A stretch of 64,000 bases of DNA from Cladopsammia gracilis (taxonomy: Eukaryota > Cnidaria > Anthozoa > Scleractinia > Dendrophylliidae), in contig JAJGOT010000348.1 of the NCBI GenBank assembly GCA_022457155.1, forward strand, positions 124,001 to 188,000, given 5' to 3'. Within the stretch, counting starts at the first letter, position 1; each line of letters opens with the position of its first letter. A program made the translations under genes and the position numbers. The notes beneath the pieces were generated by a model, which saw nothing but the letters and a program-made list of their open reading frames with translations, did no database searches and had not been told where the DNA came from. Positions 4,301 through 58,402 of the stretch are shown piece after piece.

Positions 4301-4620
4301 TACCCTGACAAGGATATATGTTCATGAAACAAAAAGCGTGAAGAGTTGAGACAAATATGACCGTGATGAAAGATGTCTCATCTAATCCGTTGGAGAGCGA
4401 GATTACTGTGCAAAATACGTTTTTTTATGATAAGGTTAAAAGCTAAAAAATGTACAAGGAAACAATAAAAATCATATAAACGATGAAAAAGCCCTTTGAT
4501 GGGCTCGAGCTCCTGTAACTATAGTTTTCTTATGGATTTTAAGAACATTTTAACGTTTAACTTTGTCATAGAGTTATATTCCAAACCTTGTCTCATAGAA
4601 AATCATGCGTTTTATTGCGT
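1314..4620. other. gene-free AT-rich stretch
   Basis: This 3.3 kb holds only short frames under 80 codons, none with a recognisable motif, repeat or flanking splice pattern that I can support. I see no element ends or RNA gene. Confidence 0.4.
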
Positions 4621-35422: not shown

Positions 35423-35732
35423 AAAATGTTTAAGCCTTGCATATCATGCCGTAAAAATGATTTTTGATTTGCTTGAAAACCATTAATTTTTCTTAAAAGT
35501 TCATCTGCAGCTAGTGATACATGAGTACTATAACATTTGAAAGTTTCTGACTTAAGATTTTGAAAAGAATTACATTGTTTAAAACAAAGGGCAATAAGCT
35601 AGCATTGCTATAGTAACCACTGTCCCTTGGAAACCAGTGACACAAAACTTTGATCACATTTTATAAACTTGGTGAAGTATAAAAACAATCAAAGTGTGTC
35701 TTCTCTGTGAAAGCCGAGTCGAGCCTCCTTAA

Positions 35733-36346
35733 GGTGATTCCCTGGTTTTGCACTGCGCATCCCTACTGCACATAAACATTGCGACATCAGATTAAAAAAA
35801 AATGGCGGCTTTTGTGAGGAAAGCCGGCCTTTCCCACGATAGAAAAGGACTCTGTGAGCGCTAACGCAAAATCGAGCACGGTGACCCCCATTTTATACTG
35901 CATAAATTCAATCAGGACAGTGTTCCCAACGCAAATTTAAAAAGTGAGCAAAAATCTATGATCAGATTTTGCACAGTTTATAGAAATCCTACGAAGAAAG
36001 CCATTTTGGGCAGAGGACCGCACACCAAGCAACCGTCTGCTGTTCGAGTGTTCAGTAAATTTGAAGCTTTTTGGACACGTTTTCTATGATACAGACGATT
36101 ATACATATGTATAAAGTCAACTTATACGCGAAATATCAATATGCAGTGGAAATATTGAGCATATTAGCTTCACGCGGTTATTGCCTGAAAATGCCTTTAA
36201 ACACTGTATTCGTCAGCAGTATACCACTAAAACGAGCACGGTGACCCCTCATTTTTGTTGCAATTTTGGAACCTTCATGACTTGTTCAATATTTGTGCCA
36301 AGTTTCATTACAAATCTATGACAGATTCTTTTTCCAGGGAATTACC
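35733..36346. mobile_element. TTAA MITE in left arm only
   Basis: TTAA-GGTGATTCCCTGG at 35729 and CCAGGGAATTACC-TTAA at 36350. The right arm has a different element at this same position. Confidence 0.85.
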
Positions 36347-38929
36347 TTAAGGTGAACCACTCCTCAATTTATCTGAAATTTCATTTTTGAAAAAAAAAAT
36401 GTTTCAAAGAAGACTGTTTTGTGTAAAGAACAAACTTTGGGTATTAAATAACACTGTGAAAAAGGAGGTACTTAGTTTTGCAATAATTATTAAGATAATG
36501 ATGAGTGTCTTTTATTGTGGTTTCCGGTTATAAAAGTGTACAGTTGATCTGCCTGTCAAAAATTCAGTCTGCGATGGCTGCTAATTCATTCTTGCTCTTC
36601 CATCGTCCGATGATGGACGGCAGCACTTAAAAGCGCCTTTTAAAAGAAGCTTGAAGATTGCCGGCTAAAATAACAGTATGTGCAGATAATTCATCCCAAT
36701 TTTGAGCAGTGCCATAAATCAAACGCATTTTATGCCGAGCGTCAGCTTAGTTGGTATCAGGTATTAAAATTGGACAGCATCCTGTTATAAGTTAAAAAAT
36801 GGCTTTACTGAAGCAAATCATCAAGTGGCATGACAATTCCCCAATCCTCACTTTACAGATCCTGAAGCAACTTGCACTCTCACAACCAGACGATGTGGAC
36901 ATGTTTTTAAAGACTGCAGCTTCACATTTTCTCAAGTTGCAATCCATTTCCATTCTGGTCATTTGCACTTCAAGACACTTTGTTATAGTTTTAGTGTAAT
37001 AGTGGAGTAATATTGTTAACAGAACTTATCCATTATTTTTAGGTTTGTGTCAATACAAATATGTTTTTTTTTTTGGCTTGTCAAAGTGATACTTAAATAT
37101 GTGACATTGCCCCTTTAGGCACTACAGTCAAAATAGCCCCTTGTGTTTAGAGCTAGACTGACGAAAAACCTGTTTCTTACTATTTCAGAGCATGTTTCCA
37201 CCAACAGAGAATGGATTCATTGTGTGACTGATTACAGATGACCGGGTCACAGTGACAGTACATGTACAACTGGAAGCCACTTTTAAGGACCTGTTAGCAT
37301 TGTAATATTGCATTGTAATGTTATGTGACATTGAAAGTATGGTACAATAGAATTCCGAAAATAACGTCCCTTCTAAACCAATGTTAATTTTGAAACTTAC
37401 AGTGCAAAGTTTCTACACGTTTCCACAATATCACCAGCTAATTCTTTTTATCATTTTGCAAACTGCGGATACGTGTGAAGCAATAAAGTGAATATAATCT
37501 TTGTATTTTGTAACTATGCACTCCTGTGATAAACACGAAGCGACAAGATAACAGTCCATCGTACTCAACTTTGCAAGGAGGCATGCCTGTCAATTCAATT
37601 TGCGCTCTCTTGTTGGCTAACTTGTGAAAACGTTTGTTGGTTGCTCATGATAAGGCACATCACACTGTAAATGTCAATTTCCTACCTGCTAGACGTGACA
37701 ATATTGCCCAAAGTAACAGCCCGGCACCCTGAAGTAGCTGCTACTTGAAAGTTGCAGCCCCTTTTGGGTGTTAATTCCAAACGAGGGAAAGGGGGCGTTA
37801 ATTTCGGAATTCTACCGTTTAAAAATTAGGAAAACTATACTCTTAAATATTTTATTTTTGTGTCTACCCTTGGAACCAGGGAGATGCTATGCTGTAACCT
37901 GATTCCACTATACACGTCACATAAGATGAGTTTTGAGGTTGCTCGTAAGGTTTCTCTGATAGGTTCACATGCATCATACTACATGAAGTACATCGTGGAT
38001 GTTAAGCGTGAACTGTCAAATAAATGACGAAAGTGCTATATCACTAATTACTCAATTGACTGCTCGAACATGCCTCGTGAAATTTAGGAACAATTTTTTG
38101 TATGCTTGATGTCATGAATGAATATTAATTTTTCATGCAATTCTCTTAGTTAAAAGCTGTAAAAAAAGGTCCAAAGAATGCATCATGCCTGACAATTACC
38201 TAGAATAAACCAAACAAATAAACAGGCATAAGGAAAGACAAGTACAATAGAAATGAGAATTATTTAAATGAAGGTTTGTAAATCCTGATACAGAACAGCT
38301 ATAATAACACTGCATCACTGATACAGAACACTAATAGATGGTTTTCACTCACGTGACCTTCAGTCCTATGGGACTCAAATGACAAAGGCCATGGTGCCAT
38401 GTTGGTGCACATAACAAAAGAAGTTCATTAAAATTCTTTTGTAGGTGTGCTCCAACATGGCCACCATGACGTAACGTGCAAACCACCTATAGGAATGCTA
38501 AAAAGCTGAATCACTATTGTTCTTTTATAAATCATACAAAATATACGCAGCAAAGCTGTATGAATATTTATAATAGGTCGCCTGGGGCTCGCCATTGTAA
38601 ATGTTCATACAGTTCTGCCGCTCATATTTTATATATTACTTACAGTACTACATTGTATAATATAAGTACAATATGCTGATATGTTATCGGAAAACACAGT
38701 TGTGATATAACAACGAAACAGCTGTCCACGGTTGCAACCCTACCTTAACGGTTTCTGTCGTATTGGTGTCTCGCAAAGTCAACTTTTTTACGTAGTCAGA
38801 TCAGCCTTGCAGTTTATTGTATGTTTGTTAATTTTTTGGTTGATTATGTCTCTTGCAGATCCTACATGTACGTATACTGTTAGCAGCTTTATCATTTGCG
38901 GTCTTTTGCAGATTTTACTTTTATCTCAG

Positions 38930-39908
38930 AATAGGCCATTTTCACAATGACGTTATTTACTACAACTCCCAGAGTTCACTTTGTTTTTCCTTTCTTATTA
39001 AAATTTTGAATCCAGTTGAGGTTTAAGGTGGAATGGTACCCTAAAATACGATGTCTAGCTTCCAACGTTGGTTTTTTTAAAATGGCAAAATTGGAATCTT
39101 AAAACACTTGAGAATCCCATTTTGAAAAATTTCACTAAATTTGCAGCACTAAACAAAGTGAACTATAAGATAACTGAATGGTGGTATATAATTTTCCTGT
39201 AGCAATGGCCCTAGCAACTATTGTTTACATTAGTTAAATGCTCATAAAACCTGCTAAATGAATGCTCCGCGCTTATAATTGATCTAGAATCGATTGTTTT
39301 AACTTTAAGTCCGTTTTTCTCAAATGTTGGAATTTGACTAAACACGTTGCAGCTCAACACCTCTCTGAAAGAGTATTTTACCTGAAGCAATAAATTTTGC
39401 TACAGTCATTTGTGAATAGTATGCTCTATGCAATGAACTAACATCAGAATAATTTTCCAAATTCTAACAAAATTATCCAATATGTTAATAGGGTGTTGCA
39501 AGAAATGTTTTCGTCAGTTTGCACCCTTGTAAAATGAAAGACTGATGTAGATTGTCATGGTTTTAGTTCATTGCACAGATCTCTGTGTGCTAAACAAACT
39601 CTGAAATTTTCAGATCCAAATGTTGCATAAATGGAGAGTTATAGCTGCCAGCGTTTGGGTAATAAAACATGGAGTTTTGGGCGTGGCATGGTTGCCATGG
39701 AGACCATAAACCCCATAACACATGTCAAACAATTTCTCTTGATAAGTGTAATAACTTGGCATTTAAGAAATCTTGAACTTAATGCAAAATTTTCCATGTC
39801 TTTGGGTATGATACCACCTTAAATAGCAATAGGCATTGTTTGGAGAACAAGACACTGAAGGATTCTATTAGCTGTAGTAAAATGACGTCATCTTAAAATG
39901 GCCTATTG
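38930..39908. mobile_element. nested MITEs, left arm
   Basis: Outer inverted ends AATAGGCCATTTT...ATGACGT enclose a second element with TTAA-GGTGG(A/T)AT at 39023-39034 and ATACCACC-TTAA at 39811-39822. Both are mirrored in the right arm (about 40190-41167, inner 40275-41078), so they predate the inversion. Confidence 0.8.
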
Positions 39909-42900
39909 CAGCAAACGCTGGCTTACTCAGTCTTCACTGTAAATAATTTGCATTAAGTCAATTCTCTATTTTCGAATTGCCTATAATACACTTTGTTTGC
40001 CCCAAAATTTTGCATGAACTATTGTTTGTAAATGCTCTTGGGAGGACTGCATATTCCCAAGAGCATTTCAAATCCATAGTTTATGCAAAATTTGGGTGGC
40101 AACCAAAGTGTATTATGGGCAATTCGAAAATAGAGAATTGACTTAATGCAAATTATTTACAGTGAAGACTGTAAGCCAGCGTTTGCTGCAAAAGGCCATT
40201 TTAAGATGACGTCATTTTACTACAGCTAATAGAATCCTTCAGTGTCTTGTTCTCCAAACAATGCCTATTGCTATTTAAGGTGGTATCATACCCAAAGACA
40301 TGGTAAATTTTGCATTAAGTTCAAGATTTCTTAAATGCCAAGTTATTACACTTATCAAGAGAAATTGTTTGACATGTGTTATGGGGTTTATGGTCTCCAT
40401 GGCAACCATGCCACGCCCAAAACTCCATGTTTTATTACCCAAACGCTGGCAGCTATAACTCTCCATTTATACAACATTTGGATCTGAAAATTTCAGAGTT
40501 TGTTTAGCACACAGAGATCTGTGCAATGACCTAAAACCATGACAATCTACATCAGTCTTTCATTTTACAAGGGTGCAAACTGACGAAAACATTTCTTGCA
40601 ACACCCTATTAACATATTGGATAATTTTGTTAGAATTTGGAAAATTATTCTGATGTTAGTTCATTGCATAGAGCAATACTATTCACAAATGACTGCAGCA
40701 AAATTTATTACTTCAGGTAAAATACTCTTTCAGAGAGGTGTTGAGCTGCAACGTGTTTAGTCAAATTCCAACATTTGAGAAAAACGGACTTAAAGTTAAA
40801 ACAATCGATTCTAGATCAATTATAAGCGCGGAAGCATTCATTTAGCAGGTTTTATGAGCATTTAACTAATGTAAACAATAGTTGCTAGGGCCATTGCTAC
40901 AGGAAAATTATATACCACCATTCAGTTATCTTATAGTTCATTTGTTTAGTGCTGCAAATTTAGTGAAATTTTTTTCAAAATGGGATTCTCGAGTGTTTTA
41001 AGATTCCAATTTTGCCATTTTCAAAAAAACCAACGTTGGAAGCTAGACATCATATTTTAGGGTACCATTCCACCTTAAACCTCAACTGGATTCAAAATTT
41101 TAATAAGAAACGAAAAACAAAGTGAACTCTGGGAGTTGTAGTAAATAACGTCATTGTGAAAATGGCCTATTCTGAGATAAAAGTAAAATCTGCATAAGAC
41201 CGCAAATGATAAAGCTGCTAACAGTATACGTACATGTAGGAACTGCAAGAGACATAATCAACCAAAAAATTAACAAACACACAATAAACTGCAAGGCTGA
41301 TCTGACTACGTAAAAAAGTTGACTTTGCGAGACACCAATACGACAGAAACCGTTAAGGTAGGGTTGCAACCGTGGACAGCTGTTTCGTTGTTATATCAAA
41401 ACTGTGTTTTCCGATAACATATCAGCATATTGTACTTATATTATACAATGTAGTACTGTAAGTAATATATAAAATATGAGCGGCAGAACTGTATGAACAT
41501 TTACAATGGCGAGCCCCAGGCGACCTATTATAAATATTCATACAGCTTTGCTGCGTATATTTTGTATGATTTATAAAAGAACAATAGTGATTCAGCTTTT
41601 TAGCATTCCTATAGGTGGTTTGCACGTTACGTCATGGAGAGCACACCTACAAAAGAATGTTAACGAACTTTTTTTGTTATGTGCACCAACATGGCCACCA
41701 TGGCCTTTGTCATTTGAGTCCCATAGGCTGAAGGTCACGTGAGTGAAAACCATCTATTAGTGTTCTGTATCAGTGATGCAGTATTATTATAGCTGTTCTG
41801 TATCAGGATTTACAAACCTTCATTTAAATAATTCTCATTTCTATTGTACTTGTCTTTCCTTATGCCTGTTTATTTGTTTGGTTTATTCTAGGTAATTGTC
41901 AGGCATGATGCATTCTTTGGACCTTTTTTTACAGCTTTTAACTAAGAGAATTGCATGAAAAAATTAATATTCATTTGTGACATCAAGCATACAAAAAATT
42001 GTTCCTTAATTTCACGAGGCATGTTCGAGCAGTCAATTGAGTAATTCGTGATATAGCACTTTCGTCATTTATTCGACAGTTCACGCTTAACATCCACGAT
42101 TTACTTCATATAGTATGATGCATGTCAACCTATCAGAGAAACCTTACAAGCAACCTCAAAACTCATCTTATGTGATGTGTATAGTGGAATCGGGTTACAA
42201 CATAGCATCTCCCCGGTTCCAAGGGTAGACACAAAAATAAAATATTTAAGAGTATAGTTTTCCTAATTTTTAAACGGTAGAATTCCGAAATTAACGCCCC
42301 CTTTCCCTGGTTTGGAATTAACACCCAAAAGGGGGTGCAACTTTCAAGTAGCAGCTACTTCAGGGTGCCGGCCGGGCTGTTACTTTGGGCAATATTGTCA
42401 CGTCTAGCAGGTAGGAAATTGACATTTACAGTGCGATGTGCCTTATCATGAGCAACCAACAAACGTTTTCACAAGTTAGCCAACAAGAGAGCGCAAATTG
42501 AATTGACAGGCATGCCTCCTTGCAAAGTTGAGTACGATGGACTGTTATCTTGTCGCTTCGTGTTTATCACAGAAGTGCATAGTTACAAAATACAAAGATT
42601 ATATTCACTTTATTGCTTCACACGTATCCGCAGTTTGCAAAATGATAAAAGAATTAGCTGGTGATATTGTGGAAACGTGTAGAAACTTTGCTCTGTAAGT
42701 TTCAAAATTATCATTGGTTTAGAAGGGGCGTTATTTTCGGAATTCTATGGTACCATACTTTCAATGTCACATAACATTACAATGCAATATTACAACGCTG
42801 ACAGGTCCTTAAAAGTGGCTTCCAGTTGTACATGTACTGTCACTGTGACCCGGTCATCTGTAATCAGTTTCACAATGAATCCCTTCTCTGTTGGTGGAAA

Positions 42901-43276
42901 CATGCTCTGAAATAGTAAGAAACAGGTTTTTTGTCAGTCTAGCTCTAAACACAAGTGGCTATTTTGATTGTAGTGCCTTAAAGGGGCAATGTCACATATT
43001 TTAGTATCACTTTGACAAGCCAAAAAAAAAACATATTTGTATTGACACAAACCTAAAAATAATGCATAAGTTCTGTTAACAATATTACTCCACTATTGCA
43101 CTAAAACTATAATAAAGTGTCTTGAAGTGCAAATGACCAGAATTGAAATGGATTGCAACTTGAGAAAATGTGAAGCTGCAGTCTTTAAAAACATGTCCAT
43201 ATTGTCTGGTTGTGAGAGTGCAAGTTGCTTCAGGATCTGTAAAGTGAGGGTTGGGGAATTGTCATGTCACTTGACA

Positions 43277-43428
43277 GGCTTTTAGCCAGAAAATGGAAAG
43301 TGGGCGTCCTGAAGATGTTTCCCATCATAAAATTTTAAAGGATTAGGTGCAATTTTCATGAACTTTCTTCCAAAAGTGGGCGTCCACAGTATGCCTGGAC
43401 ACCCAGCTGGCTAAAAGCTTGTCACTTG
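43277..43428. mobile_element. small MITE in right arm only (about 9-bp duplication)
   Basis: Inverted ends GCTTTTAGCCAG / CTGGCTAAAAGC are flanked on both sides by GTCACTTGA. The left arm has the single unoccupied site near 36825. An 8-9 bp duplication suits hAT or MuDR-type elements. Confidence 0.75.
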
Positions 43429-43900
43429 ATGATTTGCTTCAGTAAAGCCATTTTTTAACTTATAACAGAATGCTGTCCAATTTTAATACCTGATACTAAT
43501 TAAGCTGACGCTCGGCATAAAATGCATTTGATTTATGGCACTGCTCTAAATTGGGATGAATTATCTGCACATACTGTTATTTTAGCCGGCAATTTTCGAG
43601 CTTCTTTTAAAAGGCGCTTTTAAGTGCTGCTGTCCATCGTCAGACAATGGCAAAGCAAGAAAGAAGCGGCCATCGCAGACTGAATTTTTGACAGGCCGAT
43701 CAACTGTACACTTTTATAACCGGAAACCACAATAAGACACTCATCATTATCTTAATAATTATTGCAAAACTAAGTACCTCCTTTTTCACAAAGTGTTATT
43801 TAATACCCAAGGTTTGTTCTTTACACAAAACAGTCTTCCTCGAAACATTTTTTTTTTCAAAAATGAAATTTCAGATAAATTGAGGAGTGGTTCACCTTAG

Positions 43901-44354
43901 AAGTGCCCTAGAAAGTTATTTTTCAGAATCAACTCTATGTACATTGAATAGTTGAATGGTAAAATATTTCTTGCTTTGAACGTCACGTTTGTGAGTTATA
44001 GAGATTTGAATTAACTTACAAAATGCTAATTAGATGACGTCAACCCGGGAATTTGCCATTATTTCTACGCCAATTTACAATGCACAGTTTACAGCTTGAG
44101 GATAATTAATTTGAGAAATACTAAAAATAAACTGTAGATAGTCAATTGATTCGTAAAAAATATTACTTGGAGGTGTAAACAAGTAGTTGTATAATAAATG
44201 ATTCCCGGGTTGAAGTCATCTAATTAGCATTTTGTAAATTTGAATCTCTATAACTCACTAACACGACATTCAAAACTAGAAATATTTTACCATTCAACTG
44301 TTCAATGTACATAGAGTTGATTCTGAAAATAACTTTCTAGGGGTGATAGGCACT
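43901..44354. mobile_element. hairpin MITE in right arm only
   Basis: AAGTGCCCTAGAAAGTTATT and its inverted partner CTAGGGGTGATAGGCACTT enclose a near-complete 454-bp hairpin, with TTAA at 44355-44358 and TTAG (a one-base change) at 43897-43900. It occupies the same target as the unrelated MITE at 35733-36346 in the other arm. Confidence 0.82.
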
Positions 44355-44489
44355 TTAAGGAGGCTCGACTCTGCTTTTGCAGAGAAGACACGCTTTGATT
44401 GTTTTTATACTTCACCAAGTTTATAAAATGTGATCAAAGTTTTATGTGTCACTGGTTTCCAAGGGACAGGGGTTACTATAGCAATGCTA

Positions 44490-44753
44490 CAACCAGTTGC
44501 AAAAAGACTTGAGACATTGCAGCTAATTTGGACGTCAAGAGTACTTATGAGGTCGCAGTGTTTCAGTCCCCTCCCTCTCCCTTCTCAAAGTTGGTCACAA
44601 TAGCAGATCATGCTGAAATTTTCGAGAAACAACACTGAAAATAGGGGAGGGAGGGGGGAGTGGTTTAACCTTTGAGATGTGTGATTTTACGGGATGTTTA
44701 CTAAGAAAGAGTGTTTTCCTGGTGAAGTGTCTCAACATTTTCGCAACTGGTTG
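44490..44753 (+). repeat. 264-bp terminal repeat, left copy
   Basis: It starts CAACCAGTTGCAAAAAGAC and ends CATTTTCGCAACTGGTTG, so each repeat has its own imperfect inverted ends of about 27 bp. It includes a C-rich/G-rich pair (cccctccctctccc and ggggagggaggggg). It could be a MITE of the same transposase family. Confidence 0.92.
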
Positions 44754-45420
44754 TCTGAGTGCTCTGACCATGTGTAGGGAGGCAGTTGTTTTATCGATCA
44801 GCTTAGTAATTAATGTAAAGATGTCTATGTACGAGGAGTTCGTAAAAAATAAGGTTTCATGATATTGGCTTGTTCGATATGAAAATGGCGAAGAAAAAAA
44901 TGCGATTTTGAGGTGTTTTAAGGATGACATAATCGGCGCGACTGACGTTCTTGTCGGGTACCAAGGTACAAAACATGCCCGCATTGACAAATGAACAAGC
45001 GGCATGAGGTTATTTTGATTTCATTTCTTTGTAAGGATGTCATTTAAAGGTATTCAGTGAAAAGAAAGGTGAAACAAGTTTATTTGCGTGCGCTGGTTGA
45101 GCAAACAGAGTGCTTAGATGAACCAGATAAGCCACTAATCACGTGTTAGAAAAGTACACAAAGGGACGGGGCGTTCTGATCGCCTGCCAATCAAAGGAGA
45201 GAGGGTGATGGACGGTAATCAGTTTAGGAAATCAAAGCTTATCGAACGTAGTTTCCAATATTCCGTAAGTTGTTGGAATGATTTGAACTTATTCATATTT
45301 GACACACTTGGCGTTATCCCACTAACGTGATTGCGAAGTTACAGTGTACAGACTACAATATCGATGTTCGCGCGGCTCGCGGTTTACGCGATTATTTGTT
45401 TGCTAATAAAGCCGTTTGCG

Positions 45421-46893
45421 ATGGATTTGCTGCAGGGATATGAAAGTAGTGATTCGGAAGCGACGGATATTTCTAAGAGCACCAACAATGACCTTACAGC
45501 TAGCGACAAGGGTGCTTCAACGAGTGTTCTAAATGTGAGAGCTGTTCGACAAGTGTATTTAATCACCTATAGTCAGGCGGATTTACAAAAGTTCCCTGAC
45601 AGAAATTCATTCGCGCAAGCTGTTCTCCGCTCGTTTGACAGTAGTAATACAAACGTCGAACACTGGGTTTGTTGCAAGGAAGTGCACGAATCCACGGGGG
45701 GATATCACTATCATATGGCGGTGAAGTTAGAGCGCTGTAAAAGGTGGCTGTCTTGTAAACGGTACCTTGAAGAAAACTACGGTATCTCCGTGCACTTCTC
45801 CGACGTACATCATAACTATTACAGTGCATGGAAATACACCACGAAAACGGATAAATTTGTGGTGGAAAGTGACGGTCATCCCGACTTGTCCGATTATAAA
45901 GGCCCTAAAACTGAAACGGCTTCACTTTGCCGGAGAAACTACATTGAAGATACTGATGACGATGAAGAGGAAGTCTCGGAGGAGTTCTATGAAATTCCTT
46001 GTGATGACGCGAGCGAGAGATGCCATGAACGTGATTCGAAAGGGAAAAAGAGGAAAAAGCGCTTGTCTTCATTTGAACTCTCAGAAATAATTGTAAGAAA
46101 GGAAATAAAAACTCGCACGCAACTGTTGGCTTATGCGAACAACCAAAAATGCGAGGGGAAAAACGACATTGCGGAGTTTATTGTCAACAGAGGGCCCCGC
46201 GTAGTATCAGAGGTTTTAACCACAGCGTGGGAAATGCGGAATGCGCAACAGAAGTTGGAAAGGTCACAGAAAACGCGTACTCAAATCTTAGAAGAAGCAG
46301 CAGAAGGGGAATGTATTGACGGTTGTAATGGACAGTGGCTTGCTTGTGCATGTGAGGTGTTACAACAAAACGGTATTCGAAAGGAAACTTTTACAAAGGC
46401 AATAAAAGAACTCCTGGAAAAAGGCCTTAGCAAATTTCGAAATGTTATGATCTGCGGCCCAGCAAACACGGGGAAGACATTTTTACTAAACCCACTCACA
46501 AGTGTGTACAGAACTTTTTGTAATCCCGCTTGCACGTCTTTTGCGTGGGTTGGAGTGGACGACGCAGAATGCATCTTCTTAAATGACTTTCGCTGGTCAG
46601 CTCAGATAATACAGTGGCATGATTTTCTTCTTTTGCTCGAAGGACAGATGGTGCATCTCCCGGCACCCAAAACTCATTATGCTAAGGACATTGCTTTAGA
46701 GAACGACACTCCTATTTTCTGTACAGGAAAACAGCCTTTTGTTTATATTAAAAACGGCGTGATCGATGAACGAGAAACGGAGATGATGTCTGTAAGATGG
46801 AAGATCTTTCATTTAAATGTACAGATACAAAAAGATGTTCAAAAGGAATTGCCAAAGTGCTGTAAATGCTTTGCTACCTTTGTATTACACTGA
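45421..46893 (+). CDS. Rep-like protein: HUH endonuclease plus SF3 helicase
   Basis: This 490-residue protein has the layout of replication initiators of circular ssDNA replicons. Motif I lies near residues 46-50 (VYLITYS). The HUH metal site is YHYH with H96 and H98, and the YxxK nicking motif is YTTK at 139-142. An acidic linker and a basic GKKRKKR stretch (about 208-214, possible nuclear signal) follow. The SF3 helicase has Walker A GPANTGKT at about 346-353, Walker B IFLNDF at about 385-390 and motif C near TPIFCTGK (430-437). Such proteins nick an origin, stay attached through the tyrosine, and unwind it. All core residues are present and the frame is intact. The frame extends upstream, with another ATG at 45364. 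I chose 45421 because the sequence after it (MDLLQGYESSDSE) has the usual acidic Rep-like start. Its neighbour is a convergent transposase in the same element. Confidence 0.85.
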   Translation: MDLLQGYESSDSEATDISKSTNNDLTASDKGASTSVLNVRAVRQVYLITYSQADLQKFPDRNSFAQAVLRSFDSSNTNVEHWVCCKEVHESTGGYHYHMAVKLERCKRWLSCKRYLEENYGISVHFSDVHHNYYSAWKYTTKTDKFVVESDGHPDLSDYKGPKTETASLCRRNYIEDTDDDEEEVSEEFYEIPCDDASERCHERDSKGKKRKKRLSSFELSEIIVRKEIKTRTQLLAYANNQKCEGKNDIAEFIVNRGPRVVSEVLTTAWEMRNAQQKLERSQKTRTQILEEAAEGECIDGCNGQWLACACEVLQQNGIRKETFTKAIKELLEKGLSKFRNVMICGPANTGKTFLLNPLTSVYRTFCNPACTSFAWVGVDDAECIFLNDFRWSAQIIQWHDFLLLLEGQMVHLPAPKTHYAKDIALENDTPIFCTGKQPFVYIKNGVIDERETEMMSVRWKIFHLNVQIQKDVQKELPKCCKCFATFVLH

Positions 46894-46958
46894 TTAAAAG
46901 GTCGTTTACATTAGCTTTTTTCCGGAGAGAAGTGACAAGAAACTGCGGAGCAAGCACT

Positions 46959-47065
46959 GACGATCTACACGGTCTACACGGTCTACCATAACAAGTGACT
47001 TTAAAAATACATATATCATATTTCTTATTGTTCGAATGGTAGACCGTGCTCATGGTAGACCGTCA
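46959..47065. promoter_or_regulatory. iteron-like inverted repeat, candidate Rep origin
   Basis: ACGGTCTAC occurs directly at 46969-46977 and 46978-46986 (plus a one-mismatch copy at 46960-46968) and inverted as GTAGACCGT at 47039-47047 and 47055-47063. ACGGTCTACCAT and ATGGTAGACCGT can form a stem with an AT-rich loop of about 44 nt. It lies between the 3' ends of rep and the transposase gene. I see no canonical CRESS nonanucleotide in the loop. It could instead be a shared transcription-end structure. Confidence 0.5.
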
Positions 47066-47110
47066 GAAAATGAAAGAAGACAAAGATAAGCGGTTAATTC
47101 TAGAATGAAT

Positions 47111-47116
47111 TTTATT
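47111..47116 (-). terminator. candidate poly(A) signal of the transposase gene
   Basis: On the minus strand this reads AATAAA, about 237 bp beyond the transposase stop codon. A plus-strand AATAAA at 47267-47272 could serve rep. The two 3' ends would then overlap across the iteron-like repeat. Confidence 0.4.
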
Positions 47117-47352
47117 TCAAACCATTTCTTATGAAATAGGATTGACTAGAAAGAACAATCGAGCAAAGGTTTGCTGCGTGTTGTGGTTGTCTTTGAAACG
47201 TCACGCACTGATTGCCAATACGTGACACTAAGCTTAAAAAGCGTGACATCATTTTTTACGTTACTAAATAAAGGAAATATTAAACTTTGTTACTCAGAAT
47301 CTATATGCCTCCCATGTTATACTTTAACCGAAAAAAACAAATATCATTTTCT

Positions 47353-48420
47353 TCAGTATTTGGTACGACCACCTCGATTCTCTAAAATTAAATCTAATCG
47401 GCCGTACATTGAGGCGACAGTGTTGTCAACTACTTCTCTTCGGACCGAGTATAATGTACTTTCTACTCGTTGTGCAAACTGTTCAAATGTCTCTGATGTA
47501 ATATTATGTCTTATGGCTTGCCTTCTCAACTCACGCTTTACTACATTAAAGACATTCTCGATAGGATTTAAATCTCCGCTCCGCTTAGGAATAGGAAATA
47601 ACTTGCCACCGACATCTTTCAAAGCTTTTCTGGCCTTTGCACAGTTCAAAATAGGACAATTATCTTGCACAAATAGCTTCGAGCCACGTTTTCCGCTCTT
47701 TCGGAACATTTTCGGAAAATTTCTTCGCACAAAATCTGCGATAAAATTACCATCCAGGTTATCATACGGTTCACAATAAATAACACCCTTTCCGTATGAT
47801 ATAGCTACAATCATTTTTACAACTCTCCCCCCTGAGCCCACATGAGAACCCTTCGCAGTATATGTAAGTCCTTCATTTCGCTTACGCCAAACTTTCCCGT
47901 GAGGAGCTCTTGCATCGTTCATAGGATTACGTTTATGATAAAAACTCACCCCATCGAGGTAGAAACAAATGTCAGTTTTAAAAAAATCTTTTGAATAACT
48001 CCTTTGAACAGTTCGCGCAAATTGACGTCTCTCTGTATAATCCTTTTCAGTTAGTATTCCTTTCCTTCTTGCTTCCATGAACCTATACCCCAGCCGCTTT
48101 AAAGTTCGATTCATCGTCCACAAAGAAACATGATGTAATCCTGATTCGCCTCGTAATTGCTGACATGAAAAGTTTCCTTCCTCTTTGCGAAGTCTTGCAA
48201 CATTTCGCACGATCATTCGTTCATCCCGCGCACTGATTAGGCGAGGCCTCCCTCGTAACTGTCTATCTTTCTTGCATTTCTTTCCATTTAAACAACGATA
48301 AATAGATGCGCGAGATATTCCACAGCGATCTACTATTTCCTTGACAGTCAAGTCAGTTTCTTGACGAAGAAATCTCACATATGCCTTACTTTCAGCGTCT
48401 ATTTTTCCTGTGTAAACCAT
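47353..48420 (-). CDS. Tc1/IS630-like DD34E transposase
   Basis: The 355-residue protein has an N-terminal helix-turn-helix (LTVKEIVDRCGISRASIYRC, about residues 24-43), a GRPR hook (57-60) and a second HTH-like segment. The DDE core follows: first Asp in FYLDGVSF (about 153), second Asp in FVQDNC, and Glu in LNPIENVF. There are 34 residues between the second Asp and the Glu, hence DD34E. Length and order match Tc1-like transposases, which cut and paste at TA. The ATG at 48420 sits in a good context (AACATGG). The reading frame is complete. It converges on rep within the 4.4 kb element, and the TA flanks agree with its predicted specificity. All three acidic residues are present, so it may be active. 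Confidence 0.9.
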   Translation of the reverse strand: MVYTGKIDAESKAYVRFLRQETDLTVKEIVDRCGISRASIYRCLNGKKCKKDRQLRGRPRLISARDERMIVRNVARLRKEEGNFSCQQLRGESGLHHVSLWTMNRTLKRLGYRFMEARRKGILTEKDYTERRQFARTVQRSYSKDFFKTDICFYLDGVSFYHKRNPMNDARAPHGKVWRKRNEGLTYTAKGSHVGSGGRVVKMIVAISYGKGVIYCEPYDNLDGNFIADFVRRNFPKMFRKSGKRGSKLFVQDNCPILNCAKARKALKDVGGKLFPIPKRSGDLNPIENVFNVVKRELRRQAIRHNITSETFEQFAQRVESTLYSVRREVVDNTVASMYGRLDLILENRGGRTKY

Positions 48421-48649
48421 GTTGTTTTATGCCACGATAGAAGAGCATGCGCTACGTTACGTCACAAACAAAAAGTACAAAACTCGACCGATTCGCACGA
48501 GCTTTTTAGCGTACAGAACGTGCAATTAGAATCCTCAAATGTGTCTCAATGTACTAAGCACACGTTCTTTTTTACAAATAACGTGAAACAATTTCCCGGT
48601 CTTCTCTGACAACCGCCAAATCGACTAACAACTTACCTTTGCATTGAGA

Positions 48650-48913
48650 CAACCAGTTGCAAAAAGACTTGAGACATTGCAGCTAATTTGGACGTCAAGA
48701 GTACTTATGAGGTCGCAGTGTTTCAGACCCCTCCCTCTCCCTTCTCAAAGTTGGTCACAATAGCAGATCATGCTGAAATTTTCGAGAAACAACATTGAAA
48801 ATAGGGGAGGGAGGGGGGAGTGGTTTAACCTTTGAGATGTGTGATTTTACGGGATGTTTACTAAGAAAGAGTGTTTTCCTGGTGAAGTGTCTCAACATTT
48901 TCGCAACTGGTTG
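48650..48913 (+). repeat. 264-bp terminal repeat, right copy
   Basis: Direct copy of 44490-44753 with only two differences noted (cagAcccc vs cagTcccc, and caacaTtg vs caacaCtg). It ends GCAACTGGTTG, then TA. Confidence 0.92.
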
Positions 48914-48952
48914 TAGCAGCGAACACGATAACAGTGGATTCAATCAAATAAG

Positions 48953-49980
48953 AGGCACGAGAATGTAATATTCAGTGGGATAATGTTGCAAGGATCGCTG
49001 TTAACGACTGGCTTTCTATCCTGGCCAAAGCTAAAGGGACTTGCAAGGAATTTATTTTAGTAAGTGCCTTTCCCACGGTCAAGGCATTGATGGGAAACAC
49101 GACAGTAAAAATTTTTGAAGGATATGAGGAACGCGTAAATTTGTATATGCTTGGGCTCGGTGGCCCTTCGACGGGGAAAACCCAAAGCCACCGGACATGC
49201 ATTATCGATCCATTAATCAACCATCTCGAAGGGAAAATCGGAGAAGGAAGATGCATCATCAAAAGGTATTTTCCGGTACTTCACGCGCTCCTCTGATAGG
49301 GTTGCCATTAGCGCCATTGACGAGTGCCTGGACTGGTTTAAAGAAGTTTTGGGAATAAAGGGGAGTTTGACTGCACCGGCAATGAAACGGTTGCTACAAT
49401 GCTACGACGGCTCACACTGGTTCCAAAGCAAAGGGAACTCCAATAAACGGATCGGAGTTTCATCGGCAGCCTTGGCCTTGTCCTGTTTTACGCAACCTGA
49501 TGCTTTTTTGAAGAACATCATGCCAAGAATGATTTCCAAAGATAACGGTTTGCTGGATAGATTCCTCATCTACATCCCTTCTACTGAAGCTGTTTCTATC
49601 CAAAGGTGTATGGAAAGCAGCAAAGCGTTGAACAGTTCGAATCTCTCTAACTTTGAGAGAATTTATGAGCAAATTTACGCAATCCACCAGAAGGCAGACC
49701 AAGTCAAAAAATACGAGCTCTCGGCCGAGGCCCTTGATATCTATGTAAAGCACATGGGAGAGAGTAACATTAATGCGAATGAAGGAGCGTCCAGTGGAAC
49801 CACAAAAGACGACAAAACATTGTGCGAATCGCCGCAGTGATTCATGTGCTGTTCGGTCTAATTACACAGGCGCTGGACCAGACGACTGAAGTGGTGCCAA
49901 AGATGATTACACGACACGTCATGAACACGGCAATTGCAGTCTCATCTTATTTTGAGAAACAAAGCGCAATACTTCGACAG
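48953..49980 (+). pseudogene. DUF3987-type ATPase exon, two frameshifts
   Basis: The exon encodes 'GLGGPSTGKTQ' (Walker A, near 49160-49190), then 'AIDECLDWFKEV', 'LLQCYDGSHW' and 'MISKDNGLLDRFLIY'. These follow the order of DUF3987 proteins, which are P-loop proteins often found beside primase modules. It needs two changes of frame: one in an A run near 49262 and one near 49805. After the second break the frame continues 'NIVRIAAVIHVLFG' to a clean donor (CAG|gtata) at 49980. Upstream the frame is open only to a stop at 48949, 36 bp from the composite transposon, so earlier exons are missing or lie beyond the palindrome. The breaks may be real decay or assembly indels. Confidence 0.7.
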
Positions 49981-54729: not shown

Positions 54730-54913
54730 TGTTACATATTAGCATATTCATGTTGTAGATTAGTATGCGAAAGTGGAGTTGCATATTAGCATATTCATGT
54801 GTAAATTAATATGCGGAGTATTTGAGGCTTCTTTATTCATTAAAAGATTTTATTGTGTGCCTGGCTGCGGGGCAGCCAAATTGTGTTGCGCTCATTTGGT
54901 GTCCTGATAAAAT
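54730..54913 (+). repeat. 5' LTR of Ty3-like element
   Basis: Starts TGTTACATATTAGC and matches 58220-58402 for its full length except one G. It includes a duplicated 'gcatattagcatattcatgt'-type motif. The exact 3' border is uncertain because the sequences diverge after GATAAAAT. TTTGGCGACGAG just downstream is in the usual place for the primer-binding site. Confidence 0.8.
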
Positions 54914-54933
54914 ACTACATTTTGGCGACGAGT

Positions 54934-57318
54934 ATGGCTTCGTACATCGGAAGAGTGGGTGAATTTACGAAAGACAAGGAAACATTGGCGCTAACGTGGA
55001 GCGAATGGAAATGTTTTTCACGGCGAATGACATTGTTGAAACTCCAGGTTCGGAGCACGCGGTTGCGTAATCAACGCATTGCAGAGCGAAAGAAGGCAAT
55101 TTTTCTCACCGAAGTCGGTCCAGAAGTTTATTCTGTATTAAGCAATCTCTTATCGCCAGTTAAACCAAGTGATTCGTCCTTCCTAGATATTGTGCAGCGT
55201 CTCAAAGATCATTATGATCCTGCCGCCTTGGAAATAACCGAAAGTTTCCATTTTGGCATGCGGAATCAACAACTGGGTGAGCCAATCAACGACTACATTG
55301 TAGCTTTGAAGAAATTGTCCATTCATTGCAATTTTGGCGAATTCTTAAACCGTGCGTTGAGGGACAGATTTGTTTGTGGCCTGAACAGTGAAAAGATCCA
55401 AATCAAATTATTGAACATTCCAGGTTTAGCGTTTGAAAGTGCCTGCAAGAATGCCATTACCATGGAATTGGCAGATAAGAATTGTCGTAAGTTTAGTTCA
55501 AGAATGGTTGTAAGTTCAGGTACGGAAGCGGCAAGCTCGGTTAACAAAGTAAGTGCAAGCGACAACAGGAATGGTGCTGAGCAGCAAGGGGAAAAGTGTT
55601 TCCGGTGCAATGGCATCCACTCATTCCGGACCTGCAGATTTCAGGGTGCTAGGCGCTTCAAGTGCAAGCAGGTTGGACACATAGCTTCAGCATGTAGGAG
55701 AGGGGCTTCAGGTAAATCAGGCAGAGGAAGAGTCCAGAATTTGGCGGCTGGCAAAGATGAAATCCAGGCCTTAGACGATGAGCTGGGGATTTTCAGTCCA
55801 TATGCTACTAGCGGTGGTGGAGTGAACAAAGGCTACATTGTTAAATTGGAAGTAAATGGCACGAATGTTGATATGCAGGTTGACACAGCGGCGGACTTCT
55901 CCATTATGAGCAAAGATACGTACGTAAGGACATTTAAAAATATCCCATTACAGGACACTGAAGTAAAGTTGAAGACGTACACAGGGGAAACCTTAAGCAC
56001 ATGTGGTCAAATGCAATGCAAAGTCATTTACAAAGGGAAAGAGTGTACACTTCCAATGATCGTAGCTGAGTATGGTGGCAAGCCAACTTTGCTGGGAAGG
56101 AATTGGCTTGAGAAATTAAATCTTGATTGGAGCGAGATTTTTAGCTTGCACACACCGGGGAGTGAGAATCTGGATCGCCTTCTTAAAAATCACGCAACAC
56201 TTTTTAATGAAGGATATGATGGCATGAAGGGACTGGAGGCCCACGTTCGGATACGCGAGGGTTCTTCGCCGATTTACTTCAAGGCACGCCCGATACCCTA
56301 TGCTTTAAAAGAGGCTGTCGAGGCGGAGCTCAACAAACTGGAGGAAAATGGTGTTATTGTTAAAATTGAGCAGAGTGACTGGGCGAGCCCGATAGTTGTA
56401 GTGCCAAAGGCTAATGGATCTGTGCGAATATGCGGTGATTACAAGGTGACCATTAATCAAGTGGTTGATGACGAACAGTATCCTCTTCCGACGGCGCAAG
56501 ACCTGTATTCCACTCTTGCTGGATCCAAGGTATTTACCAAACGTGATCTTTCACATGCTTACGCACAAACAAGTGTCGATGAGGTCAGCCAGAAGTACTT
56601 AAGTATTAACACTCATAAAGGACTGTACGCCTACACGAAGTTGCCATATGGTGTAAAATCTGCGCCAAAGATTTTCAAAGCGACCATGGACAAGATTTTA
56701 CATGGGGTTGAGAAATGTGTGTGTAATCAAGATGATATCCTCATTGGCGGAGTTGACACTAAAGAGAATTTGGAAATTCTGGCGGAGGTATTAGAAAGAC
56801 TACACAAGTACAATGTGCGATTAAAGCTGAGCAAGTGTATTTTCCTGACGAAGCAAGTTGTGTATCTTGGCCTAAGTGTTGATGGTCATGGGTTGCACCT
56901 AGTTCAGGAGAAGATTGCAGCCATTAAAAATGCCCCAATTCCGACGAATGTGAGTGAATTGCGGTCCTTCTTTGGCATGGTACAGTACCATACACGTTTC
57001 CTGCCAGGGTTGGCCACCACTCTCTCACCTTTGCATCAGTTGTTAAAGAAAGATACCCAGTGGAAGTGGACCTGTGAAGCACAGAAAGCCTATGAAAAGT
57101 GCAAGACACGTCTTACCAGCGACGCCCTCCTTGTTCATTATGATTCCAAACGGGAACTTCAACTGGCGTGTGATGCTTCATCTTATGGACTTGGTGCAGT
57201 AATCAGTCATGTGATGGATGATGGGCATGAAAGGCCGATTGCATTTGCGTCAAGAACATTAAATCGAAAATCAAAAATCCAAATCGAAAAAGAAGCTTTT
57301 TCCTTGGTTTTTGGGTGA
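54934..57318 (+). CDS. Gag-protease-RT-RNase H polyprotein
   Basis: A single 794-codon frame from the first ATG after the primer-binding region. It has a capsid-like N-terminus, two zinc knuckles near residue 220 (CFRCNGIHSFRTC and CKQVGHIASAC) and an aspartic protease with DTAADFS near 316. RT follows with 'YPLPTAQDLYSTLAG' near 515 and the catalytic 'NQDDILIGG' near 600, and RNase H with LACDASSYGLGA near 743. Gag and Pol are fused in one frame. Translation would stop at 57316 because of a one-base frameshift within a G run; the rest of RNase H continues in the next frame. The element copies its RNA to cDNA in cytoplasmic particles. First ATG at 54934 chosen over upstream non-ATG extension inside the LTR. 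Confidence 0.88.
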   Translation: MASYIGRVGEFTKDKETLALTWSEWKCFSRRMTLLKLQVRSTRLRNQRIAERKKAIFLTEVGPEVYSVLSNLLSPVKPSDSSFLDIVQRLKDHYDPAALEITESFHFGMRNQQLGEPINDYIVALKKLSIHCNFGEFLNRALRDRFVCGLNSEKIQIKLLNIPGLAFESACKNAITMELADKNCRKFSSRMVVSSGTEAASSVNKVSASDNRNGAEQQGEKCFRCNGIHSFRTCRFQGARRFKCKQVGHIASACRRGASGKSGRGRVQNLAAGKDEIQALDDELGIFSPYATSGGGVNKGYIVKLEVNGTNVDMQVDTAADFSIMSKDTYVRTFKNIPLQDTEVKLKTYTGETLSTCGQMQCKVIYKGKECTLPMIVAEYGGKPTLLGRNWLEKLNLDWSEIFSLHTPGSENLDRLLKNHATLFNEGYDGMKGLEAHVRIREGSSPIYFKARPIPYALKEAVEAELNKLEENGVIVKIEQSDWASPIVVVPKANGSVRICGDYKVTINQVVDDEQYPLPTAQDLYSTLAGSKVFTKRDLSHAYAQTSVDEVSQKYLSINTHKGLYAYTKLPYGVKSAPKIFKATMDKILHGVEKCVCNQDDILIGGVDTKENLEILAEVLERLHKYNVRLKLSKCIFLTKQVVYLGLSVDGHGLHLVQEKIAAIKNAPIPTNVSELRSFFGMVQYHTRFLPGLATTLSPLHQLLKKDTQWKWTCEAQKAYEKCKTRLTSDALLVHYDSKRELQLACDASSYGLGAVISHVMDDGHERPIAFASRTLNRKSKIQIEKEAFSLVFG

Positions 57319-57623
57319 AGAGATTCCATCAATTCCTGTATGGCCGTAAATTCACCCTCGTGACCGACCACAAGCCCTTGCAAGCAATCTTGGGTCCCAG
57401 ATCTGCAGTTCCAACCTTAGCAGCAGCACATATGCAAACATGGGCACTGGTGCTATCGGCATATGATTATGACCTCGAGTATCGCAGGTCGGAGGAACAT
57501 TCCAACGCTGACGCTCTATCGAGATTGCCTCATCAGAACTCAAGTGTGGGCATGGAGGGTGAAATCTACACAATTGGAGCTGTTCGTGAAGATTTCCCAG
57601 TTTTGGCCGCGGACATTGCGTAG
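57315..57623 (+). pseudogene. C-terminal RNase H part, displaced by frameshift
   Basis: This frame continues the RNase H domain after the frame break: FTLVTDHKPLQAIL is the usual conserved segment and SNADALSRLP is the typical end of the domain in Ty3-like Pol. It stops at TAG near 57621. As it stands it is not translated with the rest of Pol. Confidence 0.8.
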
Positions 57624-57653
57624 GAGACACTAAAGGATCCATGTTTATGCAAG

Positions 57654-58058
57654 GTGTATGAGAATACTTTGAATGGATGGCCTGAGATGTGTGATGATGT
57701 GGAGCTGAAACCTTTTCATAATAGAAGGCATGAACTGTCCTGTGAGCAAGGATGCGTCCTCTGGGGAATTCGAGTGATTGTTCCTGTGAGGTTTAGAAGT
57801 CACTTGCTGAAGGAGTTGCACCGAGAACATCCATGTCTGAGCCTGATGTTTGCTTGCAAGTGGTTCCCGGAAGTAATTTTGAGTCACAGTCAAGCTGTAC
57901 CTCACAACTGATTCCTGAGAGTAATCAAACTGAACCGGTACCGTCTCTCGCGCCTGCACCCGAAACAGCAAACTTGCCTGTTCCTGGAGAAGCACAAACA
58001 GGGAACGCAACAGAAATAACATCATCGCCACTCCGAACTCTGAGATGCTTGGGTAGAT
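57654..58058 (+). pseudogene. integrase remnant lacking catalytic core
   Basis: The first part keeps the H2C2 zinc-binding domain of retroviral-type integrase, visible as 'VLWGIRVIVPVRFRSHLLKE' and HREHPC. The DDE core that should follow is missing. The frame passes at about 57850 into a proline-rich tail of the kind found at the end of Pol, 'PVPSLAPAPETANLPVPGEA'. So an internal deletion removed about 1 kb or more. The element could not integrate by itself. Confidence 0.75.
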
Positions 58059-58219
58059 AAGGAAGCCGGTCGTAAAGATGAATTTGTAAAAAAAAAGACT
58101 TGTATCGGACAAAAATAAGAACAGGGAACAATGTCATACTTTTCCTATTACTGTTTATTTATTTTCTAAGTTGTTTTTTTTTTGTTTGTATTTTGTTTAC
58201 TTCTTTGGCGGGAAAGTGG

Positions 58220-58402
58220 TGTTACATATTAGCATATTCATGTTGTAGATTAGTATGCGAAAGTGGAGTTGCATATTAGCATATTCATGTGTAAATTAAT
58301 ATGCGGAGTATTTGAGGCTTCTTTATTCATTAAAAGATTTTATTGTGTGCCTGGCTGCGGGCAGCCAAATTGTGTTGCGCTCATTTGGTGTCCTGATAAA
58401 AT
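58220..58402 (+). repeat. 3' LTR of Ty3-like element
   Basis: Matches the 5' LTR apart from one G in the GGGG run. After GATAAAAT it runs into AT-rich flank. Confidence 0.8.

Follow-up and report, generated by a model that had tools for sequence, protein, structure and literature searches.

A coral element family that pairs a CRESS-like Rep with a DD34E Tc1-type transposase: a candidate transposon-replicon hybrid

Based on the analysis of 64,000 nucleotides of the coral Cladopsammia gracilis (contig JAJGOT010000348.1, positions 124,001 to 188,000; hereafter the window) and of the assembly to which they belong, we describe a transposon-like unit at window positions 44490-48913 (4,424 bp) that is bounded by terminal direct repeats (TRs) and holds two intact, convergent genes, one for a Rep protein and one for a transposase. 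The order is TR, rightward Rep gene, iterons, leftward transposase gene, TR, with a 2-bp duplication, mostly of TA, at the outer ends, and the element is found as solo TRs, as single units, as arrays and as shortened derivatives in which both ends and the iteron block persist. We suggest, with a probability of about 0.6, that this element is a transposon-replicon hybrid that is integrated by its transposase and replicated from the iterons by its Rep. A sequence-only reading of the window had proposed that a Rep and a DD34E Tc1-type transposase share one TA-flanked unit; this is borne out by TA outside the TRs, TC and GA inside them and recurring copies, and to that reading we add that TRs also occur alone, that units form tandem arrays, and that there are iterons and deletion derivatives.

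In the window copy, the left TR (TR1, 44490-44753, + strand) and the right TR (TR2, 48650-48913, + strand) are each 264 bp long and differ at two positions (262/264 identical). The two TAs of the target duplication lie at 44488-44489 and 48914-48915, and the inner flanks of the TRs read TC and GA, with no TA there. Each TR has terminal inverted repeats of its own: CAACCAGTTGC is an 11-bp perfect terminal inverted repeat that belongs to each TR separately, and on both arms of each TR it is followed by a TTGAGACA motif. This combination of end and subterminal motif, which at the outer left boundary occupies 44490-44516 (+), is the likely transposase site. Inside each TR there are also C-rich and G-rich runs that are able to pair (44568-44658), and a comparable pair with different bases is present in a second family (family 2, see below). 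A second copy of the element was sought in the remainder of the window and none was found.

The Rep frame is open from 45331 to 46893 (+), and the methionine at 45421, which is the start in most of the aligned homologues, gives a protein of 490 aa (45421-46893) with a CRESS-like HUH endonuclease and a parvo/papilloma-like SF3 helicase. By fold, the endonuclease is closest to the Reps of geminiviruses and vientoviruses, while the helicase is SF3-like and closest to Rep of adeno-associated virus (AAV) and to papilloma E1. Weak Pfam matches also point to SF3 families; the Parvo_NS1 match of the window Rep is below the gathering score, and 13 of 46 members match at E≤0.01. Across 46 aligned Reps, no variation is seen at the HUH histidines H96 and H98, at Y139 and K142, at the Walker A lysine (K352) or at the motif-B aspartate (D389), in agreement with the earlier claim that the Rep is complete. 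The transposase (47353-48420, - strand), for which the same had been claimed, is indeed an intact Tc1/mariner-type frame of 355 aa with the catalytic triad D156-D253-E288, that is DD34E; among 25 aligned homologues, D156 and E288 never vary, and conservation of D253 is at least 90%. PHROGs has no family that matches Rep at E≤0.01, and for the transposase it gave four weak matches (two transcription regulators, one protein of unknown function and one DNA-binding protein).

The window's own genome (877.8 Mb, 1469 contigs, cited here as C with a number) was searched with the unit as query, and 71 matches were obtained, with the window copy among them. Full-length copies, which the sequence-only reading had named as the material by which to judge the unit, are present in this genome: four more have 99-100% identity (on C80, on C1270 and, as two overlapping units, on C1337) and one has 95% (C225). 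The other matches include several partial copies and 13 rows that consist of a lone 264-bp repeat. One layout is common to four families, of which the window copy represents family 1, and the Reps of the three others are 52-67% identical to the window Rep; family 2, found on C1467, C561 and C501, is ~69% identical to the window unit. Among the copies read, Rep and transposase are both intact in the window, on C80, in both units on C1337 and on C561 and C501, and on C1467 both genes are intact in units 1 and 4 and all four units are without stops. The copy on C1270 is broken in the transposase only, its Rep being intact, and those on C225 and C323 are broken. Comparison of families 1 and 2 gives an identity of 65% for Rep and 61% for the transposase, with 170 silent and 167 non-silent codon changes in Rep and 125 and 139, respectively, in the transposase. 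The silent changes are saturated, and the rate of silent substitution (dS) is not computable; saturation of silent changes in proteins that are still 61-65% identical fits purifying selection on both genes.

The two genes are tightly linked genome-wide. Merging of split rows left 87 Rep loci (from 97 rows) and 112 transposase loci (from 116 rows), both numbers being lower bounds. At 70 of the 87 Rep loci listed, a convergent transposase lies within 3.5 kb downstream, where ~0.02 pairs would be expected under uniform positions, and a same-strand transposase within 3.5 kb is present at none (0/87). The proposal that the two genes form one element is thereby upheld, and the opposite prospect, raised at the same time, that Rep would never co-occur with this transposase elsewhere proves false. 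As a separate proxy for co-occurrence, equal longest-contig sizes were compared between 139 Rep rows and 120 transposase rows of a public protein set. Eight sizes are common to both, four of them at 10 kb or more against 0.004 expected; coincidences among short contigs arise by chance (mean 1.5, maximum 7 in 2000 trials with 120 Rep and 117 transposase rows). The correlation between Rep and transposase distances is 0.21 if the pair of size 3867 is included (reached by 2604 of 20000 permutations) and 0.57 if this pair is excluded because its two rows stem from different sources (151 of 20000). Contigs of 3-5 kb account for 45/139 Rep rows and 34/120 transposase rows, and contigs of 5-10 kb for 6/139 and 10/120, respectively. 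Because the transposase rows peak in the 500-bp bin of 1.5-2 kb and rise again at 4-4.5 kb, the size distribution backs a unit size only weakly.

Each of the four families (4/4) has iteron-like repeats directly 3' of its Rep stop codon. In family 1, this block (46957-47066 in the window), a candidate Rep origin that is kept in the deletion derivatives, has three direct copies of ACGRTCTAC (46960-46968, 46969-46977 and 46978-46986) and two inverted copies, ATGGTAGACCGT (47036-47047 and 47052-47063). They form a hairpin in which 13-nt arms pair perfectly around an AT-rich loop of 46 nt, and as single-stranded DNA the block folds 5.4 standard deviations better than shuffles (z -5.4). The block of family 2 has AACGGTC repeats and two inverted copies, GTAGACCGT, and that of family 3 has ACGAGTCTCC twice together with ACGAGTCACC and an inverted copy ~235 nt further. 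In family 4, CCACGCTTTACCAT and ATGGTAAAGCGTGG enclose a 43-nt loop, with one additional inverted partial copy (z -7.1), and pairing is kept with different bases between families 1 and 4. The idea that all families share one conserved hairpin was rejected, as shuffles are beaten in families 1 and 4 only.

The target-site count of family 1 covers 14 loci at which both outer ends were read, of which seven are solo repeats, five are full units or arrays and two are deletion derivatives; C1066 (one end, reading CA) and C323 (neither end) were left out. The outer dinucleotide matches on both sides at all 14 loci and is TA at 12, TG at C1337 and TC at C699; the TG and TC cases show it to be a true duplication rather than an inverted end. 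Because GC precedes the duplicated dinucleotide at 14/14 loci and follows it at 12/14, the preferred target of this family is GC-TA-GC. The outer flanks are TA at 3/3 loci in family 2, the target site of a family-3 array is TTTACC-TA-GGTAAA, and the right outer end of family 4, the sole end fetched, has TA. By contrast, GA and TC form the inner sides of the TRs in each family-1 copy for which an inner side was read, and again on C1467 and C501 of family 2. Thus, the TRs within these units did not insert independently, while the inner flanks of family 3 are TA and hence do not discriminate. Solo TRs carry a 2-bp duplication of their own in 7/7 fetched copies. The suggestion that the 264-bp repeats might be independent miniature inverted-repeat transposable elements is therefore partly true: it agrees with the solo repeats and disagrees with the inner sides of the TRs in units.

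The window insertion itself adjoins a palindrome of ~8.9 kb (35600-44489), the arms of which are 93-100% alike in most aligned pieces. The palindrome stops precisely at the TA occupied by the element and has the ends GCATTGCTATAGTAACC with TA outside; it resembles a fold-back transposon into whose target duplication the element has inserted. The mirror arm of the palindrome repeats the left flank over 139 bp, as far as TAGC, and is element-free, but as it stops at TAGC it was rejected as a true empty site. The joined flanks hold no long open frame across the insertion site.

Nine head-to-tail arrays on eight contigs take in 34 of the 87 Rep loci, with a spacing of 3445-4160 bp. Transposase matches reveal further regular arrays on C1342, C771, C991 and C1347; the first three of these have a spacing of 4093-4154 bp and no Rep match among those listed, and probably represent more distant families. 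Three arrays were read end to end, and each has n cores and n+1 TRs, as expected from a terminally redundant multimer. The array on C1467 (72155-89032) consists of four cores and five TRs that are 100% identical over 12,725 bp, with TA flanks. In the dimer on C1337, which has TG flanks and 32 differences from the window copy, the two units are identical and so are the three TRs. The third array, on C1052 (16.7 kb, TA flanks), has four identical cores, and its TRs 1-4 are identical. An array on C260 has a period of 3737, with an overlap that is identical over the 3104 bp fetched.

Deletion derivatives of ~1.9 kb are found on eight contigs (C1148, C971, C141, C991, C1290, C334, C1099 and C159, with gaps or missing ends in the last three). 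Their joins agree within a few bases and leave unit positions ~1-957, 2211-2765 and 4003-4424; in other words, the entire transposase gene and most of Rep are gone, while the ends and the iteron block (unit positions 2471-2574) are kept. The derivatives on C1148 and C971, both read, lie in different flanking DNA, and each is bounded by a TA duplication of its own. That the joins are shared between sites points to a single founding deletion, later moved in trans.

In the model that we suggest, the transposase would recognize the inverted repeats at the TR ends and insert the element at TA, within GC-TA-GC in family 1. Rep would bind the iterons, nick the origin and replicate a circle made of one core and one TR, which would be 4160 bp for the window copy, and replication of this circle would give rise to head-to-tail multimers, formed by a rolling-circle mechanism either before or after insertion. 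If the transposase then cut one TR at its left end and a TR further along at its right end, the result would be a terminally redundant insert, and such an insert would have direct terminal repeats together with inner flanks that lack a target duplication. Recombination between TRs could set the circle free again, reduce the insert to a solo TR or extend an array in place, and derivatives would be mobilized in trans. Amplification as a circle fits the arrays, the iterons and the derivatives.

Several observations weigh against this model. Among the loci listed, 17/87 Rep loci and 42/112 transposase loci are without a partner. In family 2, the hairpin arms (10 nt) merely equal the shuffle maximum and the fold is no better than that of shuffles (65/200 and 64/300), and compared with shuffles the block of family 3 has no significant hairpin. 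CRESS-DNA viruses carry a TAGTATTAC-type nonanucleotide in a stem-loop, and this motif, searched as the pattern TNGTATTACC, is absent from the window. Arrays with n cores and n+1 TRs can also be produced by unequal exchange. On C1052, the fifth TR differs from TRs 1-4 at 2/186 positions even though all cores are identical; by simple arithmetic, two chance mutations would be confined to this TR about once in 10,000 cases, so that the array would have grown in place from an older single unit, which more probably accounts for it than the insertion of a ready-made concatemer. The array on C1121 alternates two Rep types (scores 611, 594, 611, 594), and unit spacing varies there (3466, 3445, 3501) and on C751 (3751-3761). 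Thus, these units are not simple copies of one template, and the alternation on C1121 is more like growth in place. The data on C1052 and C1121, together with the solo TRs that have their own duplication, would be accommodated by a Tc1-type transposon that captured a Rep and has no free replicon stage. Rep, if used, would then help to copy the element in the chromosome, and arrays and solo TRs would arise by unequal recombination between TRs, as they do with elements flanked by long terminal repeats (LTRs). We regard this alternative as possible but on balance doubtful, because Rep and iteron-like repeats are retained in four families, because the derivatives keep the iteron block although recombination by itself would have no need of it, and because all TRs and cores are identical within the arrays on C1467 and C1337.

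That same identity bears on a different alternative, in which the arrays are assembly artefacts with multiplied units and the remainder are ordinary single transposons. Identical units are a setting prone to assembler error, but the nine arrays lie on eight contigs with differing unit lengths, and wherever both ends were read they share a flanking dinucleotide (TG on C1337, TA on C1467 and TA on C1052), which makes this explanation very improbable. An endogenized virus of the CRESS or parvovirus type, with a Tc1-type transposase in the role of integrase, would be in keeping with a Rep that folds like those of AAV and geminiviruses and with a unit of 3.4-4.2 kb, a size that suits small replicons. 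Yet no capsid gene was seen in the unspliced frames examined, where the sole other frame of at least 150 aa is antisense to the transposase. In addition, scans seeded by short exact patterns or plain tblastn found, at the sensitivity used, no relative of Rep in IMG/VR or in the phage, plasmid and GTDB contig collections, no relative of the transposase in IMG/VR and GTDB contigs, and no relative with the repeat-end pattern in IMG/VR. The lack of a match in IMG/VR counts against the virus, for which we consider the chances small, and the negatives for Rep and the transposase in all these collections also weigh against the hybrid model. Chance nesting of two unrelated transposons is common in repeat-rich DNA, and the window does hold other mobile elements; as an explanation of this unit it is refuted by linkage in one orientation at 70 of the 87 Rep loci, the five further full-length matches also speak against it, and its probability is negligible.

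A typical Tc1/mariner transposon is compact and consists of a single transposase gene enclosed by a pair of terminal inverted repeats. The coral element resembles this group (Sleeping Beauty, Mos1) in the DD34E/D triad of the DDE core and in the TA duplication (12/14 in family 1, with one TG and one TC, and 3/3 in family 2). However, it differs in having a Rep and iterons, a length of ~4.4 kb, 264-bp direct repeats with inverted ends, head-to-tail arrays and a preference for GC-TA-GC. With AAV Rep68, parvovirus NS1 and CRESS Reps it shares the layout of a single-Tyr HUH domain and an SF3 helicase; unlike those viruses, it has no capsid (or VP) gene in its unspliced frames, is joined to a transposase and is integrated with a target duplication. 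Helitrons are likewise eukaryotic transposons with an HUH Rep, but their Rep has an SF1 Pif1-type helicase and they make no target duplication, whereas here a single-Tyr HUH domain is combined with SF3 and a 2-bp duplication is present at 14/14 loci. Cut-and-paste transposons multiply via host replication and repair, and most Rep replicons have no DDE integration step. Teratorn, whose partner is reportedly a herpesvirus, differs from the coral unit in size and in its transposase. It has been described as a piggyBac-like cut-and-paste transposon of 180 kb fused with another replicon (PMC10175614). The nearest precedent that we found, in the part of the source considered, is a decayed element of the truffle Tuber melanosporum, a repeated geminivirus-like transposon with Rep-like and transposase genes (Liu et al. 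2011, PMC3198968). Its Rep and two transposase frames are interrupted or truncated, it ends in inverted repeats of 37 bp, and no duplication of its target was obvious (PMC3198968). By that description, the coral unit is set apart by intact genes, 264-bp direct repeats and a 2-bp duplication, and the portion describing the truffle element mentions no arrays, iterons or direct terminal repeats and does not name the kind of transposase (PMC3198968). For DENSOV_HM of Hydra and a parvovirus-like repeat of an acorn worm, which are repeated elements with NS1-like proteins, the same portion describes no transposase, and on that description they are distinct from the coral unit (PMC3198968).

The sequence-only reading pointed to no described family with this exact architecture, and among the open-access titles and abstracts listed, in several cases the best 15-20 of up to 75 papers, we likewise found no description of a Rep together with a Tc1-type transposase, Repbase and most subscription journals being outside the scope of this survey. 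We see roughly even odds that the element represents a new class of eukaryotic mobile elements, an autonomous replicating transposon in which a Rep-replicated circle alternates with a DDE-integrated, terminally redundant form that is widely amplified in the host genome and its relatives, giving an LTR-like life style without reverse transcription; as a hybrid transposon, which is a known sort, it also has a fair chance of deserving a class to itself. The family unites Rep replication and DDE integration in ~4 kb, with many intact copies, some recent-looking arrays and an origin-like block that remains recognizable while its sequence changes with the family. It offers a concrete, testable link between replication of the single-stranded DNA virus type and the transposition of DNA elements. 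It may also explain how such an element comes to form tandem arrays and solo repeats, and it is a source from which animal genomes have Rep genes that would otherwise be called endogenous viruses.

Rfam and tRNA scans of the window found nothing. Adjoining the element is a DUF3987 gene fragment (49217-49837) that is apparently broken. Long stretches between 13829 and 34168 occur in three repeats with a spacing of ~5-11.5 kb. A Gypsy-like retroelement (54730-58361) has a frame with reverse transcriptase, RNase H and protease (54844-57315) and is bounded by identical 142-nt direct repeats (54730-54871 and 58220-58361).

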